Below are positions 12,941-22,390 of a stretch of DNA of 56,172 nt, piece after piece. Under the pieces are notes generated by a model that saw only the letters and a program-made list of their open reading frames with translations, did not search any database and was not told where the DNA came from. Position numbers and translations under genes: made by a program. Origin of the DNA: Bacillota bacterium (GTDB taxonomy: Bacteria > Bacillota > Sulfobacillia > Sulfobacillales > JAIMBI01); contig JAKADP010000007.1 of NCBI GenBank assembly GCA_021820465.1, positions 1 through 56,172 of the forward strand. Direction: 5' to 3'. Numbering within the stretch: position 1 is the first letter of the stretch; each line of letters opens with the position of its first letter.

Positions 12941-14383
12941 ATGATGAATCCGAGCGTGCGGCTGTCCGCCTTCCTGACCCAATACCCTGCCTACGGGGCG
13001 GCGGCGGTGTTGGACGACATCCGACGCGATGAGTACCCCCAGCTGGCGGCCGAGGGGCTCACGTATCTGGACTACACGGGGGCCGGGCTCGCCAGTGTCC
13101 GTCAGCTCGACGAGCATTTTGCGTGGCTCACCGCCGAGGTGCACGGCAATCCCCACTCGCCCAACCGCCCGTCTCTAAAATCCACCGAGGCCCTGGCCCG
13201 GGCACGGGAAGACGTCTTAGCCTTCTTCCATGCGGACCCCGAAGAATATGTGGTGGTGTTCACACAAAACGCGACGGGCGCGCTGCATCTGCTGGGCGAA
13301 TCCTTCCCCTTCACGCCCGATGCCCAGCTGCTGCTGACGGCGGACAACCACAATTCGGTGCTGGGGCTCCGCGAATTTGCCCGCCATGGGCAGACGCCCG
13401 TGGCCTACCTGCCGATGATCAAAGGGGACCTGCGCGCCGATGACGCGACGTGGCGCCACCTGCTGGCCACCCCGTCCACAGGCGGGGCCCGCTTGTTCGC
13501 CTATCCGGCGCAGTCAAACTTTTCGGGCGTCCGGCATGACCTAGAGTGGGTGGCCGTGGCCCAGGGATACGGCTGGCGCGTTTTGCTGGACGCCGCCGCC
13601 TGGGTGCCGACGATGCCCCTCGATCTGTCGGCCGTCCATCCCGACTTCGTCCCGCTGTCGTTTTACAAAATGTTTGGCTATCCCACCGGGGTGGGCTGTC
13701 TCATCGCTCGCCGGGAGGCGATGGAGCAGCTGTCCCGCCCCTGGTTTTCCGGCGGGACGGTGCTGGCATCGTCCTTGGCCGCCGATCAGGCGGCCATGCT
13801 GCCGGCACCGGCGGGATTCGAAGACGGGACGCCCGACTTCCTGAACATTCCCGCCGTCAGCATCGGGCTTAGGCACCTCGGCCGCCTAGACCTCGACCGC
13901 ATTCACGACCGCACGGCGGCGCTGCTGGCGTGGGTCCTGGGCGAGCTGCAGACCCTGCACCACCACAACGGCCGTCCCGTCATTCAAGTGCTGGGGCCGC
14001 GCGAGCCTCACGCGCACGGCCCCACGGTAGCGTTTCGGGTATTGGACCCCAATGGGATGGCGCAGGATGAGCGGCTCGTCATCGAAGAGGCCAATGATGC
14101 TGGCATCGTCCTGCGCTCGGGCTGCTTCTGCAACCCCGGAGCCGGCGAAGCCGCCCTGGGATTTGCGGCCGACCGCCTGAGCCAGGCCTTCCAGCACGCC
14201 GGGGCGTGGCACTCGATCGACGAACTGGTTGAGTGGATGGAGATTCCGACCTTGGGCGTAGTGCGGCTGTCGATGGGCGCCATGAGCAATTTCGCCGATG
14301 TGGAGGCCGCCGCCGCATTTCTCGGCACGTTCACGGACCGACCAGTGGTGCAGCGGGCTTTTGCGGCCCGGGCGGGCTGCTGA
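12941..14383 (+). CDS. Class V aminotransferase, molybdenum-cofactor-sulfurase-like
   Basis: The 480-residue PLP enzyme resembles the NifS-like domain of Moco sulfurases more than IscS/SufS. It has YLDYTGAGL at the start, HGNPHSPN, VVVFTQNATGAL, a substrate/PLP region with LLDAAAW, the Schiff-base lysine in LSFYKMFGYPTGVG, and late LRSGCFCNPGAGE with adjacent cysteines typical of MOCS proteins. MOCS enzymes add the terminal sulfur ligand to the Mo cofactor of xanthine-oxidase-family enzymes. A CoxSLM-type hydroxylase lies at 23.4-27.2 kb, so a link is plausible but inferred. The MOSC domain found in eukaryotic MOCS is absent. The ATG at 12941 (or 12944) follows AGGGGG. Confidence 0.8.
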   Translation: MMNPSVRLSAFLTQYPAYGAAAVLDDIRRDEYPQLAAEGLTYLDYTGAGLASVRQLDEHFAWLTAEVHGNPHSPNRPSLKSTEALARAREDVLAFFHADPEEYVVVFTQNATGALHLLGESFPFTPDAQLLLTADNHNSVLGLREFARHGQTPVAYLPMIKGDLRADDATWRHLLATPSTGGARLFAYPAQSNFSGVRHDLEWVAVAQGYGWRVLLDAAAWVPTMPLDLSAVHPDFVPLSFYKMFGYPTGVGCLIARREAMEQLSRPWFSGGTVLASSLAADQAAMLPAPAGFEDGTPDFLNIPAVSIGLRHLGRLDLDRIHDRTAALLAWVLGELQTLHHHNGRPVIQVLGPREPHAHGPTVAFRVLDPNGMAQDERLVIEEANDAGIVLRSGCFCNPGAGEAALGFAADRLSQAFQHAGAWHSIDELVEWMEIPTLGVVRLSMGAMSNFADVEAAAAFLGTFTDRPVVQRAFAARAGC

Positions 14384-14631: not shown

Positions 14632-14705
14632 CTCTCGGGGCGGCGCCCCGACCCATGCTCCGTCTACCCACTATGGGTTAGCACTGGCCTAGACTCTGAA
14701 CGTGA

Positions 14706-14722
14706 CACGATATATCATCGTG
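14706..14722. promoter_or_regulatory. Inverted repeat CACGAT-N5-ATCGTG, candidate VapB operator
   Basis: A perfect 6-bp inverted repeat around ATATC ends 15 nt before the vapB ATG and just before the AAGGAG ribosome site. AbrB-type antitoxins usually repress their own operon through such sites, with the toxin as co-repressor. Confidence 0.55.
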
Positions 14723-14737
14723 CCAAGGAGTGACCAC

Positions 14738-14983
14738 ATGGCAATCGTATCCCGGATGTCGTCCGGCGGCCGCATCGTCCTGCCCAAAGAACTGCGCCAG
14801 TATTTGGACGTGAAGGACGGGGATCAAGTGGTGCTGGACTGGGACGGGGAGGCGGTCCGCGTCACATCGGCCCGGCAGCGCCACCGTCATGCGCAAGAGC
14901 TGGTCACCCAAGCCGTCCCGCCCGAACGATCGCTGGTGGAGGAGTTGCTGGCCGAGCGGCGTCGCGAAGCGGCGCGCGAATAG
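14738..14983 (+). CDS. AbrB/MazE-type antitoxin (VapB-like)
   Basis: The 81-residue protein has an N-terminal SpoVT-AbrB swapped-hairpin domain (IVSRMSSGGRIVLPKELRQYLDVKDGDQVVL). Its charged, probably disordered C-terminus (LVEELLAERRREAARE) is where such antitoxins wrap the toxin. The ATG at 14738 follows AAGGAG by 7 nt. The stop is separated from the toxin GTG by one nucleotide, a coupled toxin-antitoxin arrangement. Confidence 0.87.
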   Translation: MAIVSRMSSGGRIVLPKELRQYLDVKDGDQVVLDWDGEAVRVTSARQRHRHAQELVTQAVPPERSLVEELLAERRREAARE

Positions 14984-14984
14984 G

Positions 14985-15365
14985 GTGGTGCTGGATGCTT
15001 CCGCCCTGCTCGCCTACCTACACGCCGAGCCCGGGGCAGATATTGTAGGCGAGGCTCTCGGGGCCGATGTGGTCATGAGTGCCGTTAACTGGGCAGAAGT
15101 TTTGGCCAAACTTCACCAAGGCGGCCTCACCCCAAATGCATGGCGCGCTGTGCTGGCCGATTTGCGCGACATCGCCGTCATTCCCTTTACCCAGCCGGAT
15201 GCCGAAGCGGCTGCGGCGCTTTCACTGGAGACGCGACGGCTGGGGTTGTCGCTCGGCGACCGGGCGTGCCTGGTCCTGGCCGACACGCGTCAGGATACGG
15301 CACTCACCGCGGACCGGGTGTGGAGCGAGTTGCTTCCGCGTTACCGCGTGCGGCTGATCCGGTAG
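14985..15365 (+). CDS. PIN-domain ribonuclease toxin (VapC-like)
   Basis: The 126-residue PIN protein contains the acidic residues of the fold: VVLDASALLAYLHAE (first Asp), MSAVNWAEVLAKL (Glu), GLSLGDRACLVLA (Asp) and LTADRVW (last Asp). VapC toxins cleave specific RNAs, commonly initiator tRNA or the 23S sarcin-ricin loop; the target here is unknown. Tandem GTG codons begin at 14985, right after the antitoxin stop. All catalytic positions are present, so it should be functional, unlike the decayed PIN gene near 31.5 kb. Confidence 0.87.
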   Translation: MVLDASALLAYLHAEPGADIVGEALGADVVMSAVNWAEVLAKLHQGGLTPNAWRAVLADLRDIAVIPFTQPDAEAAAALSLETRRLGLSLGDRACLVLADTRQDTALTADRVWSELLPRYRVRLIR

Positions 15366-15680: not shown

Positions 15681-16817
15681 CTACGTCGGCGTGACCGATC
15701 CCTTGGGGCCCGAATCTGGCGTGCTCCCCCGCGCCAGCATGACTGCCACCAGCACAGCCGGTGCCGGCACGGCGAACAGCACCCGTGTGAGCCCCAGCAC
15801 GTCGCGGGCGCCCACCAGCATCACGGCCACCAGCAGCAGGCCGACCGCCCGCGACCCATTGAGGGCCAGCTCCTTGCTGGCCGTGGCCCGGTGATGGTGG
15901 TGCGTGTGCCCAATCACGTCGAGGCTCCACGCCTCGAGCGGCACTTTCTGCAGCGGGATGGCCAGCCCCACGGCAGCGCCAAAGCCCCACAGGCTCACGG
16001 GCAGGGGCAGCCCGGCCAGCAGCGCACTGGCGGCCGCGACCAACCCAGCGCCCATCCAAGCGAGGCGCGGACGTGCGCGGGGGCTCTGCGCGCGCCCCGC
16101 CCAATGATTCCCCACCAGGGCCATCGCCGCGACAAGGCTGGCAAATGCCCCCACCTGCACAGCAGACCCGGTGGTCTCAAACATCAGGAGCCCGGGCACC
16201 ACCACCAGGATCCCCTCATAGGCGCCACGCGCTGCCATGCCGGCTATGAGAGGCCGCCAGCCGGGCCCCATCGCCTCCCGGGGGGCGGCGCGCGGCGCGT
16301 GCACCCCCACGGCGCGCGTCAATAGCCACGAAGGCACCAGTCCCGCCACCGACACCGCAAACACTGTCACAAAGCCACCGGCCCACCGGATGAGCGCAGC
16401 GCCAGCCAGCGGCCCTATCAGGCTGGCCGCCGCCTCGGCCGTGCCCACCGTCCCATTGAACCGATCCCGGTCGCGGTCCCGTGTGTCACCCAGCGCGGCC
16501 ACGTACAAGCCCAGCCAGTACGACCCGTACCCCAAGCCGGCCACCATGCCCAAGAGGTCCACCCACGGCGCCACGGCGTGGCCGAGACCGGCAATGCTCA
16601 CCAAGAACAGCACCATGAGCGCAATGCCCCAGCGCATGAAGCGGCGCGGCGGCCACGGGAGCCACCGGGCGCCGAAAAACACGCCGGCCATCGCGACAAA
16701 CTGCAGGCCGGCAAACACCAGCAGCTGGGCTGGCTCTACCCGCTCGAGCCATAAAAACGGCACCACAAAGGCGTCGGACACGGACAGGGCCACACTGACA
16801 GACAGTGTGGCCCACAC
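15681..16817 (-). CDS. Major facilitator superfamily transporter
   Basis: The 378-residue product is almost entirely hydrophobic, with about 10-12 predicted membrane segments (for example FAGLQFVAMAGVFFGA and GIALMVLFLVSIAGLGHA). It has two halves separated by a basic loop around VHAPRAAPREAMGP. A cytoplasmic-type loop near residue 310 carries HTHHHH, possibly metal-binding. The substrate is unknown. The GTG at 16817 lies 21 nt downstream of the selenoprotein stop with no separate ribosome site, so it is probably coupled to that operon. The context suggests a sulfur compound or thiol as cargo, but this is only inference. Confidence 0.75.
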   Translation of the reverse strand: MWATLSVSVALSVSDAFVVPFLWLERVEPAQLLVFAGLQFVAMAGVFFGARWLPWPPRRFMRWGIALMVLFLVSIAGLGHAVAPWVDLLGMVAGLGYGSYWLGLYVAALGDTRDRDRDRFNGTVGTAEAAASLIGPLAGAALIRWAGGFVTVFAVSVAGLVPSWLLTRAVGVHAPRAAPREAMGPGWRPLIAGMAARGAYEGILVVVPGLLMFETTGSAVQVGAFASLVAAMALVGNHWAGRAQSPRARPRLAWMGAGLVAAASALLAGLPLPVSLWGFGAAVGLAIPLQKVPLEAWSLDVIGHTHHHHRATASKELALNGSRAVGLLLVAVMLVGARDVLGLTRVLFAVPAPAVLVAVMLARGSTPDSGPKGSVTPT

Positions 16818-16837
16818 CAGACGGCGCGCCGACGCGG

Positions 16838-17488
16838 TCAGCTAGCCGCCACCTGACGAATCTTCTCCAGCAGGGCGCCCTCAGGCACCGCCCCGACTAC
16901 CTGCTCCTCGCCGTTCACCAGCGTCATCGGCACGCCCATGACGCGGAACCGCTGGGACAGCCGCATAAAGCTCTGCGCATCCACCATGTCGGCCGTAACG
17001 TGCTCCGGGTTGACCCGGGCCATCTGCTGAGCCAGGCGAACTGCCTGGGGGCAGTAGGGTCAAGTGGGGGTAACAAATACCTCCAGGTGAAGCGGCCGCG
17101 TTAACTGCGACAGGTAGTCCCGCGCCGCCGCGCTCAGCTCCGGGGGTGTGTCGGTGGACAAATCTCGCAGGGTCTGCAGCATGGGGCCAAATTCGTGGCC
17201 GCCCGGGAAGCCCAGATACCGGATGCCCGTGTCGTCCCCATCCACACTGAATGTCGTAACGACACTCTCCAGGTCGTCCGCCGTCTCCGGAGCTAGGGGC
17301 TCGGGACGCTCGGCCTTCACCGCCACCACCACCTTGGGATTGATGGCGCTCAAGTCGCGCCACAGCTCTTCCACGGCGTCGGAGGCCGGGTTTCCCGCCA
17401 CGGCGTGGACATGGACCGTCACCGGCTTGTCCAACCCGTCCAGAAACTGCTGCACCTCTGCCTTCACATCATCGGTCATCAAGCTCAT
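16838..17488 (-). CDS. Protein disulfide oxidoreductase with an in-frame TGA, predicted selenoprotein (UPYC)
   Basis: This is one frame of 217 codons interrupted only by TGA at 17060-17062 (codon 143). The N-terminal thioredoxin-fold half lacks CxxC but has the family's DGDDTGIRYLGFPGGHEFGP. The second half reads LEVFVTPT-TGA-PYCPQAVRLA, then ADMVDAQSF, VMGVPMTLVNG and VVGAVPEGALLEKI, all typical of PDO/glutaredoxin-like two-domain oxidoreductases whose motif is TPTCPYCP. TGA thus replaces the first, nucleophilic Cys. A SECIS-like hairpin follows. Automatic annotation would give a truncated 142-residue protein and a spurious second ORF. The ATG at 17488 follows GGGGGAGAAGGAG. The alternatives, nonsense mutation or base-call error, are less likely given the precise position and hairpin. 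Confidence 0.82.
17024..17054 (-). promoter_or_regulatory. Bacterial SECIS-like hairpin after the TGA codon
   Basis: On the minus strand CCAGGC-AGTTC-GCCTGG forms a perfect 6-bp stem with a 5-nt loop. An outer CTGC/GCAG helix extends it across an internal loop. The apical loop begins 17 nt after the TGA and has G among its first two bases. This meets the published bacterial SECIS criteria (16-37 nt to the loop, G at loop position 1 or 2). SelB would bind here. Confidence 0.72.
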
Positions 17489-17521
17489 GTATCGACTCCT
17501 TCTCCCCCACAGGGGGTGCGG

Positions 17522-18145
17522 CTACCCCACCGGCGCGGTCGGATGCCGGCCCGCCAGCCACAGCGCCATGCCGCCGCGCACGTTGGCCACCTGGTAGCCC
17601 CGGTCTGCCAAAAATGCCGCGGCCGCCTGCGAGCGGTTGCCGTGCGCACACACCAAGGCGTAGCGCCCGTTCGCCTCCAGCGCGCCCGCGCGGTCGGGCA
17701 GCTGGTTCAAGGGAATGGTTCGGGCACCGGGAATCACTCCGGACCGCCATTCGTACGGCTCGCGCACATCAATCACGGTCCACTCGCTCAATTCTCTCGC
17801 CAACTGGTCCGCGGTAATGTCCGGCACAGACACCAGACGGAGACCCTGAGCCTGCCACGCCTCGGCCCCGCCGTCCAGCACAGAGACGGACGCCACGCCC
17901 GCCTCTTGCAATGCGCGCTGCGCCGCCGCTCCCACCACCGCGTTGTCCGCCAGCACGGTCACGGGGATGGCGCCTTGGCGGTCGATCCAGCTCTTCACCG
18001 GCGCCGCCCAGCCGTGCTGGGCGTACGGCGCCGACAGACTGTGGGCGACGTGTCCCCGCGTATAGGCGGCGCCGGGCCGCACGTCCAGCAAGAGCCGGCG
18101 GCCGGCGGCTGCCTCGCTCATCAGTTCCTCACCGGTGCCCGTCAT
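17522..18145 (-). CDS. Tandem-rhodanese sulfurtransferase
   Basis: The 207-residue protein has two rhodanese-like domains. The first (LLLDVRPGAAYTRGHV) has VLADNAVVG where the active-site loop should be and no cysteine, so it is inactive or structural. The second (VIDVREPYEWRSGVIPGARTIPL) has the full persulfide-forming loop CAHGNRS. Such proteins transfer sulfane sulfur between thiols, cyanide or enzyme persulfides. The ATG overlaps the stop of the metallo-hydrolase gene (ATGA) and follows GGGAGG, and the gene lies 33 nt before the selenoprotein. The order resembles CstB-like persulfide systems, with domains on separate proteins. Confidence 0.87.
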   Translation of the reverse strand: MTGTGEELMSEAAAGRRLLLDVRPGAAYTRGHVAHSLSAPYAQHGWAAPVKSWIDRQGAIPVTVLADNAVVGAAAQRALQEAGVASVSVLDGGAEAWQAQGLRLVSVPDITADQLARELSEWTVIDVREPYEWRSGVIPGARTIPLNQLPDRAGALEANGRYALVCAHGNRSQAAAAFLADRGYQVANVRGGMALWLAGRHPTAPVG

Positions 18146-18978
18146 GGAGTCACGCCTCCCTTTACCCCTCCCGATTGGAGCCAGGGCGCCATCAGCGGCG
18201 CCGGCGCGGCCGCGTCGGCGGCCGGCGGCTTGGCCGCCCCGAGATTGACTTGGCGCAGGCGCTCCGCGTCGGGCGGCGGCGGCTTCAGGAGTGCCAGCTG
18301 CTGGTCTACAAACGCGGTCGGCTCCTCCAACATCAGCATGCGGTTGAAGCGCCGCTCGTAACCCACCGTCGAGCTGGGCTTCTTGCTCATGAACAGGCCG
18401 CCGCACGGCGACGATCCATAGTGCGCCGGGTGCACCTCCGTGAAGTCCGGCAGGCTGAGAAACCGCCGCACACTGTGAAACTGGTCCAGCGCGGCCGCCC
18501 GGATCTCCTCCGGGTCGGCGTCGCCTAGGTCAGGCCGCCCCACATCGCCCACAAACAGGCTGTCGCCGGTTAGGACGACCCAGGGGTCGTCGCCGCGCAG
18601 CGTATCGCGCACCACGAGCGAGATGCTGTCGGGCGTGTGGCCGGGGGTTTCCCAAACCGTCACGCCCACAGAGCCCCACCGAATCTCATCGCCGTCCCGC
18701 ACCGGAGCTGTGGGAAACGCCGCCGCGGCCCGATGGCTCAGCGTGACCGGCACATTCACCGCTGCCGCCAGCTCCTGGGCCGCCGACGCGTGATCCGCAT
18801 GCACGTGTGTCTCCACCACCCACCGAATGGCGAGGCCGGCCTCCTGGGCTGCCAGCACGTAGGCTTCGGCGCCCACCGCTCCCAAGGCATCCACCACCAT
18901 GGCGCTGCCCTCTAGGTCGTCGCCCAGGAGGTACGAGCTACACCCCAGCGTGGGGTCGCGCAACACTTGCCAAAACAT
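18142..18978 (-). CDS. ETHE1-like persulfide dioxygenase (metallo-beta-lactamase fold)
   Basis: Enzymes of this family oxidise glutathione, CoA or other low-molecular-weight persulfides to sulfite using a mononuclear iron. The 278-residue product has the metal motif THVHADHAS (H58, H60, D62, H63), the PGHTPDSISLV histidine, LTGDSLFVGDVGRPDL and the HPAHYGSS histidine. GDVGRPDL is characteristic of ETHE1/BlrB types. The ATG at 18978 is preceded by GGGGGTGA; upstream in-frame codons lack conservation. The adjacent tandem rhodanese supports persulfide chemistry. The thiol substrate is unknown; in a Bacillota it could be bacillithiol or CoA. Confidence 0.85.
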   Translation of the reverse strand: MFWQVLRDPTLGCSSYLLGDDLEGSAMVVDALGAVGAEAYVLAAQEAGLAIRWVVETHVHADHASAAQELAAAVNVPVTLSHRAAAAFPTAPVRDGDEIRWGSVGVTVWETPGHTPDSISLVVRDTLRGDDPWVVLTGDSLFVGDVGRPDLGDADPEEIRAAALDQFHSVRRFLSLPDFTEVHPAHYGSSPCGGLFMSKKPSSTVGYERRFNRMLMLEEPTAFVDQQLALLKPPPPDAERLRQVNLGAAKPPAADAAAPAPLMAPWLQSGGVKGGVTP

Positions 18979-18992
18979 CGCAATCACCCCCA

Positions 18993-19008
18993 ATACCCTC
19001 GTGGGCAT
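18993..19008. promoter_or_regulatory. Degenerate second ATACCC-N4-GGGCAT site before the dioxygenase
   Basis: ATACCC-TCGT-GGGCAT differs from the better site at 19482-19498 by one base in an arm and a shorter spacer. It lies 15 nt upstream of the dioxygenase ATG and may be a second binding site for the same regulator. Weak evidence alone. Confidence 0.3.
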
Positions 19009-19052
19009 GATCTTATGCTTCCGCCGCCAAGGCTGTCGAGGCCGCGGCCAGG

Positions 19053-19451
19053 CTAGTGGGCCGCTTCCTGAATAGCGGCCGTAAGCAGCGATTCGACCTC
19101 GTTGGCCAGTGGCTCCAGCGCAGGATCCCCCAGCAGCTCCGTCATGAGGCGGGGCCGCTGCAACCCAATGACGGTGCCTTGGGTTTGGCCGTCCGTATAC
19201 ACGACAATTTTGCACGGCAGGAAGTAGCCCACCTGCTGGTTGGTCGTGAGCGCCTGCTTGGCCCGCGGCGCACTGCACACCTCCAGCACATGGAAGGGCA
19301 GTCCAGGCTCCAGCCCTTTCTCCACAAGCTTCTCATTGATGTCCAAATGCCACAGGACCCCAAACTGATGCGCCTGGAGCCGCTCGGTCACGGACTGAAT
19401 GGCCGCATCCACGGACTCGCGGGTTGTCACGGCCACGAAGTTTTCCGCCAT
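19053..19451 (-). CDS. DUF302 family protein
   Basis: The 132-residue cytoplasmic protein matches DUF302: VAVTTRESVDAAIQSVTERLQAH at the start, HLDINEKLVEKG, HVLEVCSAPRAKQAL (family xxCxPxxA motif), and GYFLPCKIVVYTDGQTQ with the conserved LPC. The biochemical role of the family is not known, but it often sits with sulfur-oxidation and rhodanese genes. The ATG at 19451 has GGAGGG 8 nt upstream. It is the first gene downstream of the ATACCC inverted repeat and lies 74 nt before the persulfide dioxygenase, so the five genes could form one transcript. Confidence 0.85.
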   Translation of the reverse strand: MAENFVAVTTRESVDAAIQSVTERLQAHQFGVLWHLDINEKLVEKGLEPGLPFHVLEVCSAPRAKQALTTNQQVGYFLPCKIVVYTDGQTQGTVIGLQRPRLMTELLGDPALEPLANEVESLLTAAIQEAAH

Positions 19452-19481
19452 CACGCATCCCTCCTCGCTTCATGGTACTAC

Positions 19482-19498
19482 ATACCCCCCACGGGTAT
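19482..19498. promoter_or_regulatory. CsoR/CstR-like operator ATACCC-N5-GGGTAT
   Basis: A perfect 6-bp inverted repeat, ATACCC-CCCAC-GGGTAT, lies 31 nt before the DUF302 start. CsoR-family repressors (copper-sensing CsoR, persulfide-sensing CstR) bind sites with a C-tract/G-tract bounded by AT, of the form ATACCC...GGGTAT. Given the persulfide enzymes downstream, a CstR-like regulator is the best guess; no csoR/cstR gene is in the window. Confidence 0.55.
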
Positions 19499-19577: not shown

Positions 19578-20087
19578 CTAGGGCCTCACCCAGCCCGCCA
19601 CGCGCACGCCGCCATAGTCGTGGCCCACGTGTCGCGACGCAATGCTGACAAAGGCCAGCGGCGCGGGCCCGGGGTTGAGCACGCGATGGGCCCATCCGGC
19701 CGGCACCAGCGTCTGCACACCCGCCCGCAGCGCCACGGACTCCACCAACCCGCTGCGCGTCGCCCGCTCCAAAAGGCCCTCGCCCGACACCACGGACACG
19801 TATTCGGGTCCGTCCGGGTCGTGATGAAAGTGCCCCTTGGTGTGAAAGGGCTCGTCCCCAATCCTGCCGGCCATCAGCAGGGTCAGGCTCACATCCAGAT
19901 CGGTGGAGCCAGCCCCTTGCGGCGGCCAGGTGTATACCTCATAGATGACCGGGTCCGCCCCATCGGCCGGCTGGCCGGCGAAGAAGGCCCTCATGTCGGA
20001 CCAGCGCCGCTCGGCGCGGTGCGCTGCGGCGGCGGCTCCCGCCTGCCACGCCGGGAATGCGCTCGGATCCAAGTAAAACGCGTCCAC
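19578..20087 (-). CDS. Cupin-type phosphoglucose isomerase
   Basis: The 169-residue protein has the single-cupin fold of the archaeal-type glucose-6-phosphate isomerase family. Cupin motif 1 is FHTKGHFHHDPDGPEYVSVV with the HxH and Glu metal ligands; motif 2 is PAGWAHRVLNPG with the last His. LTLLMAGRIGDE before motif 1 is also typical. These enzymes interconvert glucose-6-P and fructose-6-P using a bound metal. The GTG at 20087 follows GGAGGGAT. It is on the same strand as, but 127 nt from, the DUF302 gene, so cotranscription is uncertain. Confidence 0.83.
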   Translation of the reverse strand: MDAFYLDPSAFPAWQAGAAAAAHRAERRWSDMRAFFAGQPADGADPVIYEVYTWPPQGAGSTDLDVSLTLLMAGRIGDEPFHTKGHFHHDPDGPEYVSVVSGEGLLERATRSGLVESVALRAGVQTLVPAGWAHRVLNPGPAPLAFVSIASRHVGHDYGGVRVAGWVRP

Positions 20088-20218: not shown

Positions 20219-22060
20219 TCACGGCTGATACGCGGGGACAGAGAGACCCGCGGGCAGCACGATGGTCATGTCGTGGCGCAGGACCACGCGGCGGTGAAAC
20301 GTCCCGATGGTGATGGTCACCGGCACGCTGCGGCTCCCGGGCTGCTCCTGCAGAATGAGGCGGCGCGGCAGGCTATGAAAGGGCAGCCGATAGGTCACGG
20401 TCAGGCTGCCCGTGGCGGGGGGATCCTTGAGAGACCGGCGCGCCCCCATCACGATGAATCCCCCAAACACCGACTTGTTGAGCGTGGGATTCACGTGGTT
20501 CTGGGAAAAGCCAGCGCTGCCCTGCAAGCTGACGAGCTGGGCGCCGCGAGGCACATACAGGCGCACCAAGCCGCTGTAGGGCACGACCATCCACCCGTTG
20601 TAGAGCGCAGGGTTGACCAGCGTCACGGTGGTGATTTGGATGTAGGTGTGCGGAGCCGCCTGCTCAATTTGGGTGCTCACCTGCTCCTTGAGGAAGAAGT
20701 TGTCCTTATGGCCGCCCAAGTTTTCGTCCACGACCTGCAGATAGTTCGCCCCGTGGGTGTGGCGAATAACCTGTCCGCCCCACCCGAAGTGCTCAACCCA
20801 CTGCTCCTCGCTGGGATTGTTGAAGTACAGCAGGATCCACTTGCGCGCGAGCGCCGTCTTCAGCGACTGAAGCACTTGGAGCTTCAGATGAGTGCTGCCG
20901 TGAACGATGCGGGTCACGAGGTCGTGGGCCAGGACCCCTAGAAACTGCTTGTCCAGGCCGGGGCGGGGATACGGAGCCAGCTCCGCCAGGTACTCCATGG
21001 TCACGTTGGCGTTTTTGGCCGTGAACACCGCGTGATGGTAGGGGGTCACCACGTTGACCCGGCCCACGTCCCCGATCAGCTGGTCGGCCACCCAGACGTC
21101 CACAAACAGCACCCCATTGATCTGGGGATGGTGGGGAATGGAATTCCAAAATCTATAGATGGTCTGAACCGTGGTCGGGACGTTCGGGGAGGTGTTCGCG
21201 TCGCGCAGGTGCCAATGCTTGAGAGCAAATTCATAGGCGATGGGCCCCGGCGCGGGCGGCCGATACCGAATGGCTGGCGCCAGTGAATAGATGCCGTGCT
21301 CGTGGATGGGGGCCACGACGCCGTGCCGAATGGTGACGACCGCGTATGCCGTCAGAAAGCCTCCCGTGGCGCGCATTTCGCCATTGTTTTGAAAAAATAC
21401 CAGGTAGTGCTGCGTATGGGGAAACCCCAGCATCCGCATCACGGCGGGGAGCGCCCGCCGCCAGGTGGGCAGCGCGTCCTGCACGTCTCTCAGGCCCACC
21501 AGCAGCCGCGGAGTCCAGACCGCCAGCGGGCGCGCCACGGGAGACCACACGCCCTGTCGGGGCACCTGCCGCAGCGCGGCCGCCATGCTGTGCAGATCGG
21601 CCTGGTGCCGCGCCACCGCCGCCGTCATCTCGGGCAGCCGCGCCGCCACCGTGCTGGCCACCCCGAGCGTGCTGGCGGACGCCGGCAGCGTCCCCGGCAG
21701 CGCGCCCACGGCCGACCGTGCCACGACGGCGGCGCTGAAGCTGAACTGGGCCAGATCGACCGCTGCACGATAGGTGGGGCCGATCCCCGGCACATCCCCC
21801 AGCCAAAAGAAGCCGTGCAGCCCGAGGCGCAAGGTGGATAGCGCGGGAACCGCCCACGATAGGTCGCGGTGCACGGCCGCGATGTTGTGCGCCGCCACGG
21901 CCTGCCGGGCGCTTAGGCCCTGCCAGACCAGCACCACAGTGCTGGACCCCACCAGCAGGCAGGGCCCGCCCACCAACAGCGCGACGACACTCAGAATCAG
22001 GGTGGTGCGCCAGTGCCGCCACCACTTGGCCAGCGTACTCCACCGGGTGGACAAGGTCAT
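20219..22060 (-). CDS. DUF4012 membrane-anchored protein
   Basis: The 613-residue product has one N-terminal membrane segment (TLILSVVALLVGGPCLLVG, residues about 20-45). A large exported domain follows with the DUF4012 signature YLVFFQNNGEMRATGGFL, then NGVLFVDVWVADQLIGDVG and a C-terminal beta-rich part (VTYRLPFHSLPRR). DUF4012 proteins are common in actinobacteria and Firmicutes, often near polysaccharide genes, but have no proven function. The ATG at 22060 has GGAGAG 6 nt upstream. It stands alone here. Confidence 0.78.
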   Translation of the reverse strand: MTLSTRWSTLAKWWRHWRTTLILSVVALLVGGPCLLVGSSTVVLVWQGLSARQAVAAHNIAAVHRDLSWAVPALSTLRLGLHGFFWLGDVPGIGPTYRAAVDLAQFSFSAAVVARSAVGALPGTLPASASTLGVASTVAARLPEMTAAVARHQADLHSMAAALRQVPRQGVWSPVARPLAVWTPRLLVGLRDVQDALPTWRRALPAVMRMLGFPHTQHYLVFFQNNGEMRATGGFLTAYAVVTIRHGVVAPIHEHGIYSLAPAIRYRPPAPGPIAYEFALKHWHLRDANTSPNVPTTVQTIYRFWNSIPHHPQINGVLFVDVWVADQLIGDVGRVNVVTPYHHAVFTAKNANVTMEYLAELAPYPRPGLDKQFLGVLAHDLVTRIVHGSTHLKLQVLQSLKTALARKWILLYFNNPSEEQWVEHFGWGGQVIRHTHGANYLQVVDENLGGHKDNFFLKEQVSTQIEQAAPHTYIQITTVTLVNPALYNGWMVVPYSGLVRLYVPRGAQLVSLQGSAGFSQNHVNPTLNKSVFGGFIVMGARRSLKDPPATGSLTVTYRLPFHSLPRRLILQEQPGSRSVPVTITIGTFHRRVVLRHDMTIVLPAGLSVPAYQP

Positions 22061-22390
22061 GCCGATCTCTCCGTTAAGCGGTCTGTGCGTCTTCTTGGAC
22101 AATGCCTCGCCTCACGGCGGCCCGGACCAACACCGCGGCGCCCGGGCGATCCGGCTGGGGGCGACAACGCTTCTTCCCATCAAGATACGCCCCACAATAC
22201 GCCGCGGGTCGGGGCCTGTCACCCCCCGGCTCGGGAAGAGGCCACGGCTCCCGCGCCCTGAGCACAGGCCGCCCGGCTCGCTCGGGCAGACTCGCTTGAC
22301 GCCTCGGGCCGCTTTGGGGACGATAATGGCGCTAATCTCGTGCGGGAGCCGGTGCTGTCGTGCGCGCAAAACTTATTGAGGAGCGATCGG
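22061..22390. other. Divergent intergenic region between the DUF4012 gene and trpS
   Basis: No gene or T-box motif is seen in these 330 bases. A possible trpS promoter has TTGACG (22296-22301) and GATAAT (22322-22327), but the spacer of 20 nt is too long for a confident call. Confidence 0.4.

Follow-up and report, generated by a model that had tools for sequence, protein, structure and literature searches.

What would a predicted selenocysteine (Sec) oxidoreductase be doing next to a persulfide dioxygenase-like protein, a rhodanese and a protein of the DUF302 family? This question is raised by five minus-strand genes of a Bacillota bacterium of the order Sulfobacillales (assembly GCA_021820465.1, contig JAKADP010000007.1). 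The stretch of DNA analysed, hereafter the window, is 56,172 nucleotides (nt) long and is a single contig (C66) of a 2.88-Mb draft genome. The locus is best explained as a form of the Cst persulfide-handling system that makes use of selenium, a reading to which, including the roles proposed below, we give a probability of about 70%. Its parts are of known kinds, their combination was not found described, and it is conserved well beyond one genome. A first-pass annotation of the window had proposed such a persulfide module, and the CstB-type gene content and the conserved neighbourhood support it. The five genes that it listed, for DUF302, a metallo-beta-lactamase (MBL) or ETHE1-like dioxygenase, a tandem rhodanese, a Sec oxidoreductase and a major facilitator superfamily (MFS) transporter, were all borne out in position and in Pfam or NCBIfam family (Table 1). 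From first to last they are separated by 74 nt, by an overlap of 4 nt (ATGA), and by 33 and 20 nt.

Conservation of the gene neighbourhood

Gene content, co-localisation and the signals described below are read directly from sequence. Genes were counted as co-localised when lying within 3 kb of each other in 42 genomes of the order, and the counts were compared with the expectation from random placement, which is 0.1-0.3 for each gene pair. The MBL and rhodanese genes are together in 28 of 29 genomes from 12 genera (expected, 0.11). The Sec oxidoreductase gene accompanies the MBL gene in 17 of 29 genomes and the DUF302 gene in 17 of 38 (9 genera), and DUF302 and MBL genes are together in 18 of 29. 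A gene for a CsoR-family regulator is found near the Sec oxidoreductase gene in 22 of 40 genomes (11 genera; expected, 0.3) and near the DUF302 gene in 20 of 38. Over random placement, the enrichment ranges from 27-fold, for the weakest of ten pairs, to more than 200-fold.

The first-pass annotation had named a lack of conserved gene order in any relative as grounds for giving up the module; the opposite was found, and the module recurs throughout Sulfobacillales. Its gene order varies. DUF302-MBL-rhodanese-Sec oxidoreductase is seen in the window's genus, MBL-rhodanese-Sec oxidoreductase divergent from CsoR-DUF302 in g5 and g8, and DUF302-CsoR-Sec oxidoreductase in g12 and g14. In another family of the class (g16; L199-L202), DUF302, Sec oxidoreductase, rhodanese and MBL genes are clustered in four genomes, with a TauE-like exporter gene in three of the four stretches read. 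The association is partly present in G209, G259 and G248.

A dioxygenase and a rhodanese resembling a divided CstB

The MBL protein has its best PDB matches in 3tp9, an MBL-rhodanese fusion, and in 3r2u, an MBL-family protein which we take to be CstB of Staphylococcus aureus. The ETHE1-type iron ligands (two His, one Asp) are kept, as the motifs HxHxDH, PGHT, GDS and PAH align to both structures, and HxHxDH, H114 and D139 are invariant in the MBL alignment. The active-site cysteine of CstB is also present: SSPCGG of the window protein aligns to GSPCGKS of 3r2u, and the SxCGG cysteine is retained in every Sulfobacillales row. By these alignments, the MBL protein is the predicted equivalent of the CstB N-terminal domain, a persulfide dioxygenase-like member of the ETHE1 superfamily. 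The tandem rhodanese is collinear with residues 288-468 of 3tp9; its first domain is without the catalytic cysteine, and its second carries CAHGNRS with an invariant one.

Because the MBL protein matches the N-terminal half of 3tp9 and the rhodanese its C-terminal half, with identical catalytic residues, the two genes are, as judged by homology, CstB cut in two. The difference is that they specify two polypeptides from overlapping genes instead of one chain, so that the Cys-bearing rhodanese repeat is not on the dioxygenase chain as in CstB. Separate chains leave the claim of a CstB-like working unaffected. The likeness to CstB, with functions on separate proteins, had been proposed before and is supported by the collinear alignment to 3tp9.

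The selenocysteine oxidoreductase

Across its in-frame TGA, the oxidoreductase reads VFVTPT-U-PYCPQAVRL. It matches the full profile of TIGR02187 at 172 bits, under the curated cut-off of 185. One in-frame TGA is present in nearly all close orthologues across the 42 genomes, and the aligned site is TGA in 38 of 41 orthologues and TGC in three. The hairpin that follows has six pairs: four are standard in every one of the 38 TGA orthologues, and the outer two are so in 36. One of the inner pairs switches between A-U and G-U. Of the three Cys orthologues, one has a degraded hairpin. The same genome encodes tRNA-Sec (67.8 bits), SelB (338.9 bits) and SelA (507.9 bits), each above its cut-off. selA and selB lie on contigs C101 and C149 and tRNA-Sec on C136, in the scanned part of which no sel genes adjoin it. 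Since the TGA is conserved across the order with its downstream hairpin, and since selA, selB and tRNA-Sec are in the genome, the codon is predicted with confidence to specify selenocysteine. The Sec oxidoreductase of the first-pass annotation is therefore real. Automatic annotation would end the open reading frame at 17060, as if the TGA were a true stop and the gene truncated or decayed, for which we see next to no chance: UPYC and the cis-Pro are intact downstream, and the orthologue conservation, the hairpin and the Sec machinery rule out a stop and a sequencing error alike.

TIGR02187 already appears in published lists as a predicted selenoprotein family (PMC13188914, PMC9312934), and therefore the selenoprotein is not new per se. 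The window protein shares with the family, which belongs to the archaeal protein disulfide oxidoreductases (PDO), two thioredoxin folds and a UxxC in the second. It differs in that the CxxC of the first fold is lost; relatives in g16 retain it (ECPYC), with CPYC and UPYC in their first and second folds, respectively. The published lists give the family no persulfide context, whereas the window member adjoins persulfide genes. The AlphaFold model (pLDDT 94.6) has UPYC in the second of two thioredoxin folds and matches Pyrococcus PDO 1a8l at Z 29.0 over 207 residues (root-mean-square deviation 1.9). Further TGA-containing thioredoxin-like paralogues, of about 208-232 amino acids (aa), occur in the order and across the class.

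The model also matches the N-terminal domain of AhpF (Z 25-26), and TIGR02187 has been filed as 'homolog of AhpF N-terminal domain' (PMC13188914). The selenoprotein might then be a general AhpF-like disulfide or peroxide reductase, placed here by shared oxidative-stress control and not by persulfide chemistry. In several genera the genes for the Sec and MBL proteins are indeed not together, and of 80 homologues from a cysteine-biased scan, 68 carry Cys and mostly lack module neighbours. Against this, adjacency to DUF302, CsoR, MBL and rhodanese genes is repeated in many genera where about 0.1-0.3 is expected per pair, and the loci read showed no AhpC gene, although AhpC was not searched for in them. 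We consider a general reductase improbable, and the preferred reading keeps the Sec protein within a Cst-like persulfide module.

DUF302 and the MFS transporter

The DUF302 gene is single-copy in 38 of the 42 genomes. Two cysteines of its product, C59 and C80, are kept without exception across 19 sequences, some of them from outside the order. A fold search with the AlphaFold model (pLDDT 95.6) found the known DUF302 structures 1q9u (Z 21.9) and 1j3m, together with a single entry from Brucella at Z 18.4; the next hits, to KA1- and START-like folds at Z 8.4 or less, are uninformative. The fold and both cysteines are common to 1q9u, 1j3m and the window protein, and we know of no function for either of these two proteins. 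No paper was found that links DUF302 to persulfide, or Sulfobacillus to selenoproteins. The first-pass annotation had the five genes together sensing or binding sulfane sulfur. Nothing shows DUF302 to be the sensor, and the likely sensor is the CsoR-family repressor. Nor did the transporter hold its place as an exporter belonging to the module: it adjoins the other genes solely in the window's genus (G000-G003), as a genus-level add-on.

Predicted operators and a CsoR-family regulator

With up to one mismatch allowed, the 489 kb of module loci contain 41 copies of the inverted repeat ATACCC-N4-GGGTAT, where first-order Markov sequence would give 0.75, and 25 of the 41 sit no more than 250 bp upstream of a module gene. 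In the window, one site precedes DUF302, and a second, weaker one falls inside the gap between DUF302 and the dioxygenase gene, for which an alternative in-frame ATG start exists at 19008. A close relative (G001) has a perfect site with a 4-nt centre at the position of the DUF302 operator, and its dioxygenase site is perfect as well. TAC/GTA repeats around G/C tracts are operators of the CsoR family (PMC3902906, PMC10318464), and known type-2 sites have the form TAC-X9-GTA (PMC3902906). As predicted operators stand before DUF302 and again before the dioxygenase gene, the five genes may be two co-regulated transcripts. This arrangement suggests two units under a CsoR-family repressor encoded elsewhere.

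Such a gene adjoins the Sec oxidoreductase gene in 11 other genera, and the window's own genome has a copy on another contig (C76). Two cysteines 24 residues apart (C-x23-C) are found in 18 neighbouring homologues and in the C76 protein. Since this regulator with the same spacing is present in the genome, control of the module in trans by the C76 protein is likely. TTHA1953, a CsoR-family regulator of sulfur oxidation in Thermus, is similar in its CsoR fold, thiol control, TACC/GGTA inverted repeat of fixed spacing and sulfur-gene targets; it differs in a cysteine spacing of 29 (C39/C68) and in controlling sox genes (PMC10318464). When the window's own genome was searched for exact operators (centres of 3-4 nt), a single further site turned up, C98:4541. 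It lies near genes named by eye as an apparent amino-acid permease and a racemase-like protein, with no link to sulfur seen.

The module could also serve energy-yielding sulfur oxidation instead of detoxification: in cells growing on sulfur, its sulfite or thiosulfate would then enter dissimilatory sulfur oxidation. Sulfur-oxidising Sulfobacillus belongs to the order, rhodaneses of S. acidophilus TPY change strongly between growth on S0 and on FeSO4 (PMC5114278), and DUF302 is found in the sox clusters of other sulfur oxidisers, among the Proteobacteria (PMC5037610). However, a regulator and operators for CsoR-type repression are what a stress system typically has, and no Sox, Hdr or SQR gene was seen adjoining the module, in neighbourhoods not screened for those families. 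An energy-yielding role is unlikely in our judgement, and we return to persulfide handling under repression.

Table 1. Features of the module and of its surroundings in the window.
Feature	Position	Strand or location	Remarks
DUF302 gene	19451-19053	minus	132 aa; PF03625, E 8e-14
MBL/ETHE1-like dioxygenase gene	18978-18142	minus	PF00753, E 2e-15
Tandem rhodanese gene	18145-17522	minus	PF00581, E 2e-28, two stretches
Sec oxidoreductase gene	17488-16838	minus	read through TGA 17060-17058; TIGR02187 'PDO_seleno_TRX', E 8e-51
MFS transporter gene	16817-15681	minus	GTG start; MFS_1, E 8e-9
Predicted CsoR-type operator ATACCCCCCACGGGTAT	19482-19498	upstream of DUF302	inverted repeat, 5-nt centre
Second operator-like inverted repeat ATACCCTCGTGGGCAT	18993-19008	directly upstream of dioxygenase start	one mismatch
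UGA codon, predicted selenocysteine U143	17060-17058	minus	orthologue alignment and Sec machinery
Hairpin like a Sec insertion sequence (SECIS), CCAGGC-AGUUC-GCCUGG	17030-17046	minus	starts 14 nt after U of UGA
SufS-like class V aminotransferase gene	12941-14383	plus	cysteine desulfurase or selenocysteine lyase-like
MazE-like antitoxin and PIN-domain gene pair	14702-15365	plus	just past MFS gene
Cupin-type glucose-6-phosphate isomerase-like gene	19578-20087		upstream of module
DUF4012 gene	20219-22102		upstream of module

Surrounding genes are listed in Table 1. The SufS-like desulfurase gene, in a genome that makes selenoproteins, might speak for a module that supplies selenium or sulfur for biosynthesis, its rhodanese carrying selenium or sulfane sulfur for selenophosphate, Fe-S clusters or thiolation. 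We find this very unlikely. The desulfurase gene is on the opposite strand with the MazE-PIN pair in between, the dioxygenase would waste the carried atom, and the module operators are of the stress type.

Elsewhere in the order, a family of about 344 aa (c7; L062, L066-L073) without a Pfam match is encoded near the Sec oxidoreductase gene in g5, g7 and g8. The c7 gene is preceded at five g7 loci by an ATACC-type operator, at a distance of about 80-105 bp.

Comparison with Cst systems and a proposed mechanism

The known systems closest to the window are Cst of S. aureus (CstR, CstA, CstB, TauE, Sqr) and the yrkD cluster of Bacillus licheniformis. Common to them and the window are the predicted CstB-type chemistry of MBL and rhodanese domains, a CsoR-family repressor with a type-2-like operator, here a predicted one, and, in some relatives, a TauE-like exporter. 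The CstR-like yrkD cluster has a thioredoxin-like gene, ydfQ, which is a precedent for a redox partner in such a cluster (PMC9918477). The window differs in its split CstB, its Sec oxidoreductase and DUF302, and in regulator cysteines 24 instead of 29 residues apart. The earlier comparison to CstR/CstAB thus stands for CstB, in the form of split genes; no counterpart of CstA was seen in the module. Neither CstA (rhodanese-TusA) nor SQR is among the named genes around the window module, and the loci of relatives were not systematically scanned for them. We found no description in the literature of TIGR02187 as a partner of persulfide genes, of DUF302 and of this operator.

Several observations weigh against a Cst-like module. 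It is broken up in several genomes (G014, G037, and most of g7, which keep the genes apart), and therefore its parts can work alone; outside the order, elsewhere in the phylum, 26 of 34 DUF302 loci are without a detected module neighbour. The CsoR homologue of the window's genus lies away from the module, and no operator was found in the 300 bases upstream of it. The regulator also departs from CstR, whose sensing cysteines are C31 and C60, 29 apart (PMC9774590); when it is aligned to 7mq3, its second cysteine falls off the CstR position.

For the reactions, the sensing of persulfide, the pairing of regulator and operator and the role of DUF302, we infer the following scheme. The one catalytic cysteine of the rhodanese would accept sulfane sulfur or hand it on. 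Acting on the persulfide, the iron dioxygenase would produce sulfite, or thiosulfate together with the rhodanese. This half of the mechanism is drawn from CstB chemistry; the steps of the Sec protein and DUF302 are our own proposal. The Sec oxidoreductase, through UPYC in its second thioredoxin fold, may act on partners that carry persulfides or disulfide links, freeing sulfane sulfur and restoring the thiols, with selenocysteine giving a stronger nucleophile. DUF302, with its two invariant cysteines, may be a small partner that binds, buffers or carries sulfane sulfur. The C-x23-C repressor would keep the genes off via ATACCC-N4-GGGTAT until cross-linked by persulfide.

A dioxygenase paralogue with two candidate selenocysteine codons

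The dioxygenase search also returned MBL paralogues with one to three in-frame TGA codons, of which the third in some is the stop. One is encoded in the window's own genome (L227:9361-10104, contig C105) and others in relatives (L210-L226). They are 44% identical to the window MBL protein. The TGA sites are in SYLFG-U-GG and (F/Y)(S/A)GST-U-GRDLSGKVVST, and both align with cysteines of 3tp9 and 3r2u; in g7 paralogues the first position is occupied by Cys. The second TGA is followed by a 7-bp stem with a GGUCG loop, paired in 17 of 17 sequences. In the stem after the first, one pair alternates among C-G, U-A and U-G, with a frequent C-C mismatch. The metal-ligand Asp of TGDSL is changed to His (TGHSL, TGHAL, TGHTL), and the last His is lost. 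Next to these genes lies one for an MFS transporter, which at the C105 locus has no detectable similarity to that of the window; several genera also have a rhodanese or a regulator of the ArsR or ArsR-rhodanese kind among the neighbours. No CsoR-type operator was found at these loci.

No NCBIfam selenoprotein model matched the paralogue. No MBL selenoprotein was found listed in the literature, and the text of a 2026 review has no lactamase, MBL or dioxygenase entry. The paralogue is apparently an unlisted double-selenocysteine protein, as far as its codons and stems indicate. Together with the module it suggests a recurring use of selenium in the persulfide chemistry of this order. A wider and more tentative reading, which we place a little short of even odds, is that Sulfobacillales and relatives have a selenium-dependent persulfide metabolism with two branches, one being the Sec oxidoreductase/DUF302 module under the C-x23-C CsoR and the other the double-Sec dioxygenase paralogue with a candidate three-His site.

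Implications

DUF302 and the TIGR02187 selenoprotein, both families of unknown role, are placed by this locus in a testable persulfide pathway, and a CsoR-family regulator with unusual cysteine spacing is offered together with a clear predicted operator. Following up the module also led to the dioxygenase paralogue with two selenocysteine codons. If true, the two-branch reading would mean a new class of double-selenocysteine dioxygenase-like enzymes and a first pathway role for DUF302. Related bacteria from acid mines have these genes together with the same predicted operator, and the module would link selenium use to the control of reactive sulfur in acidophilic bioleaching bacteria.

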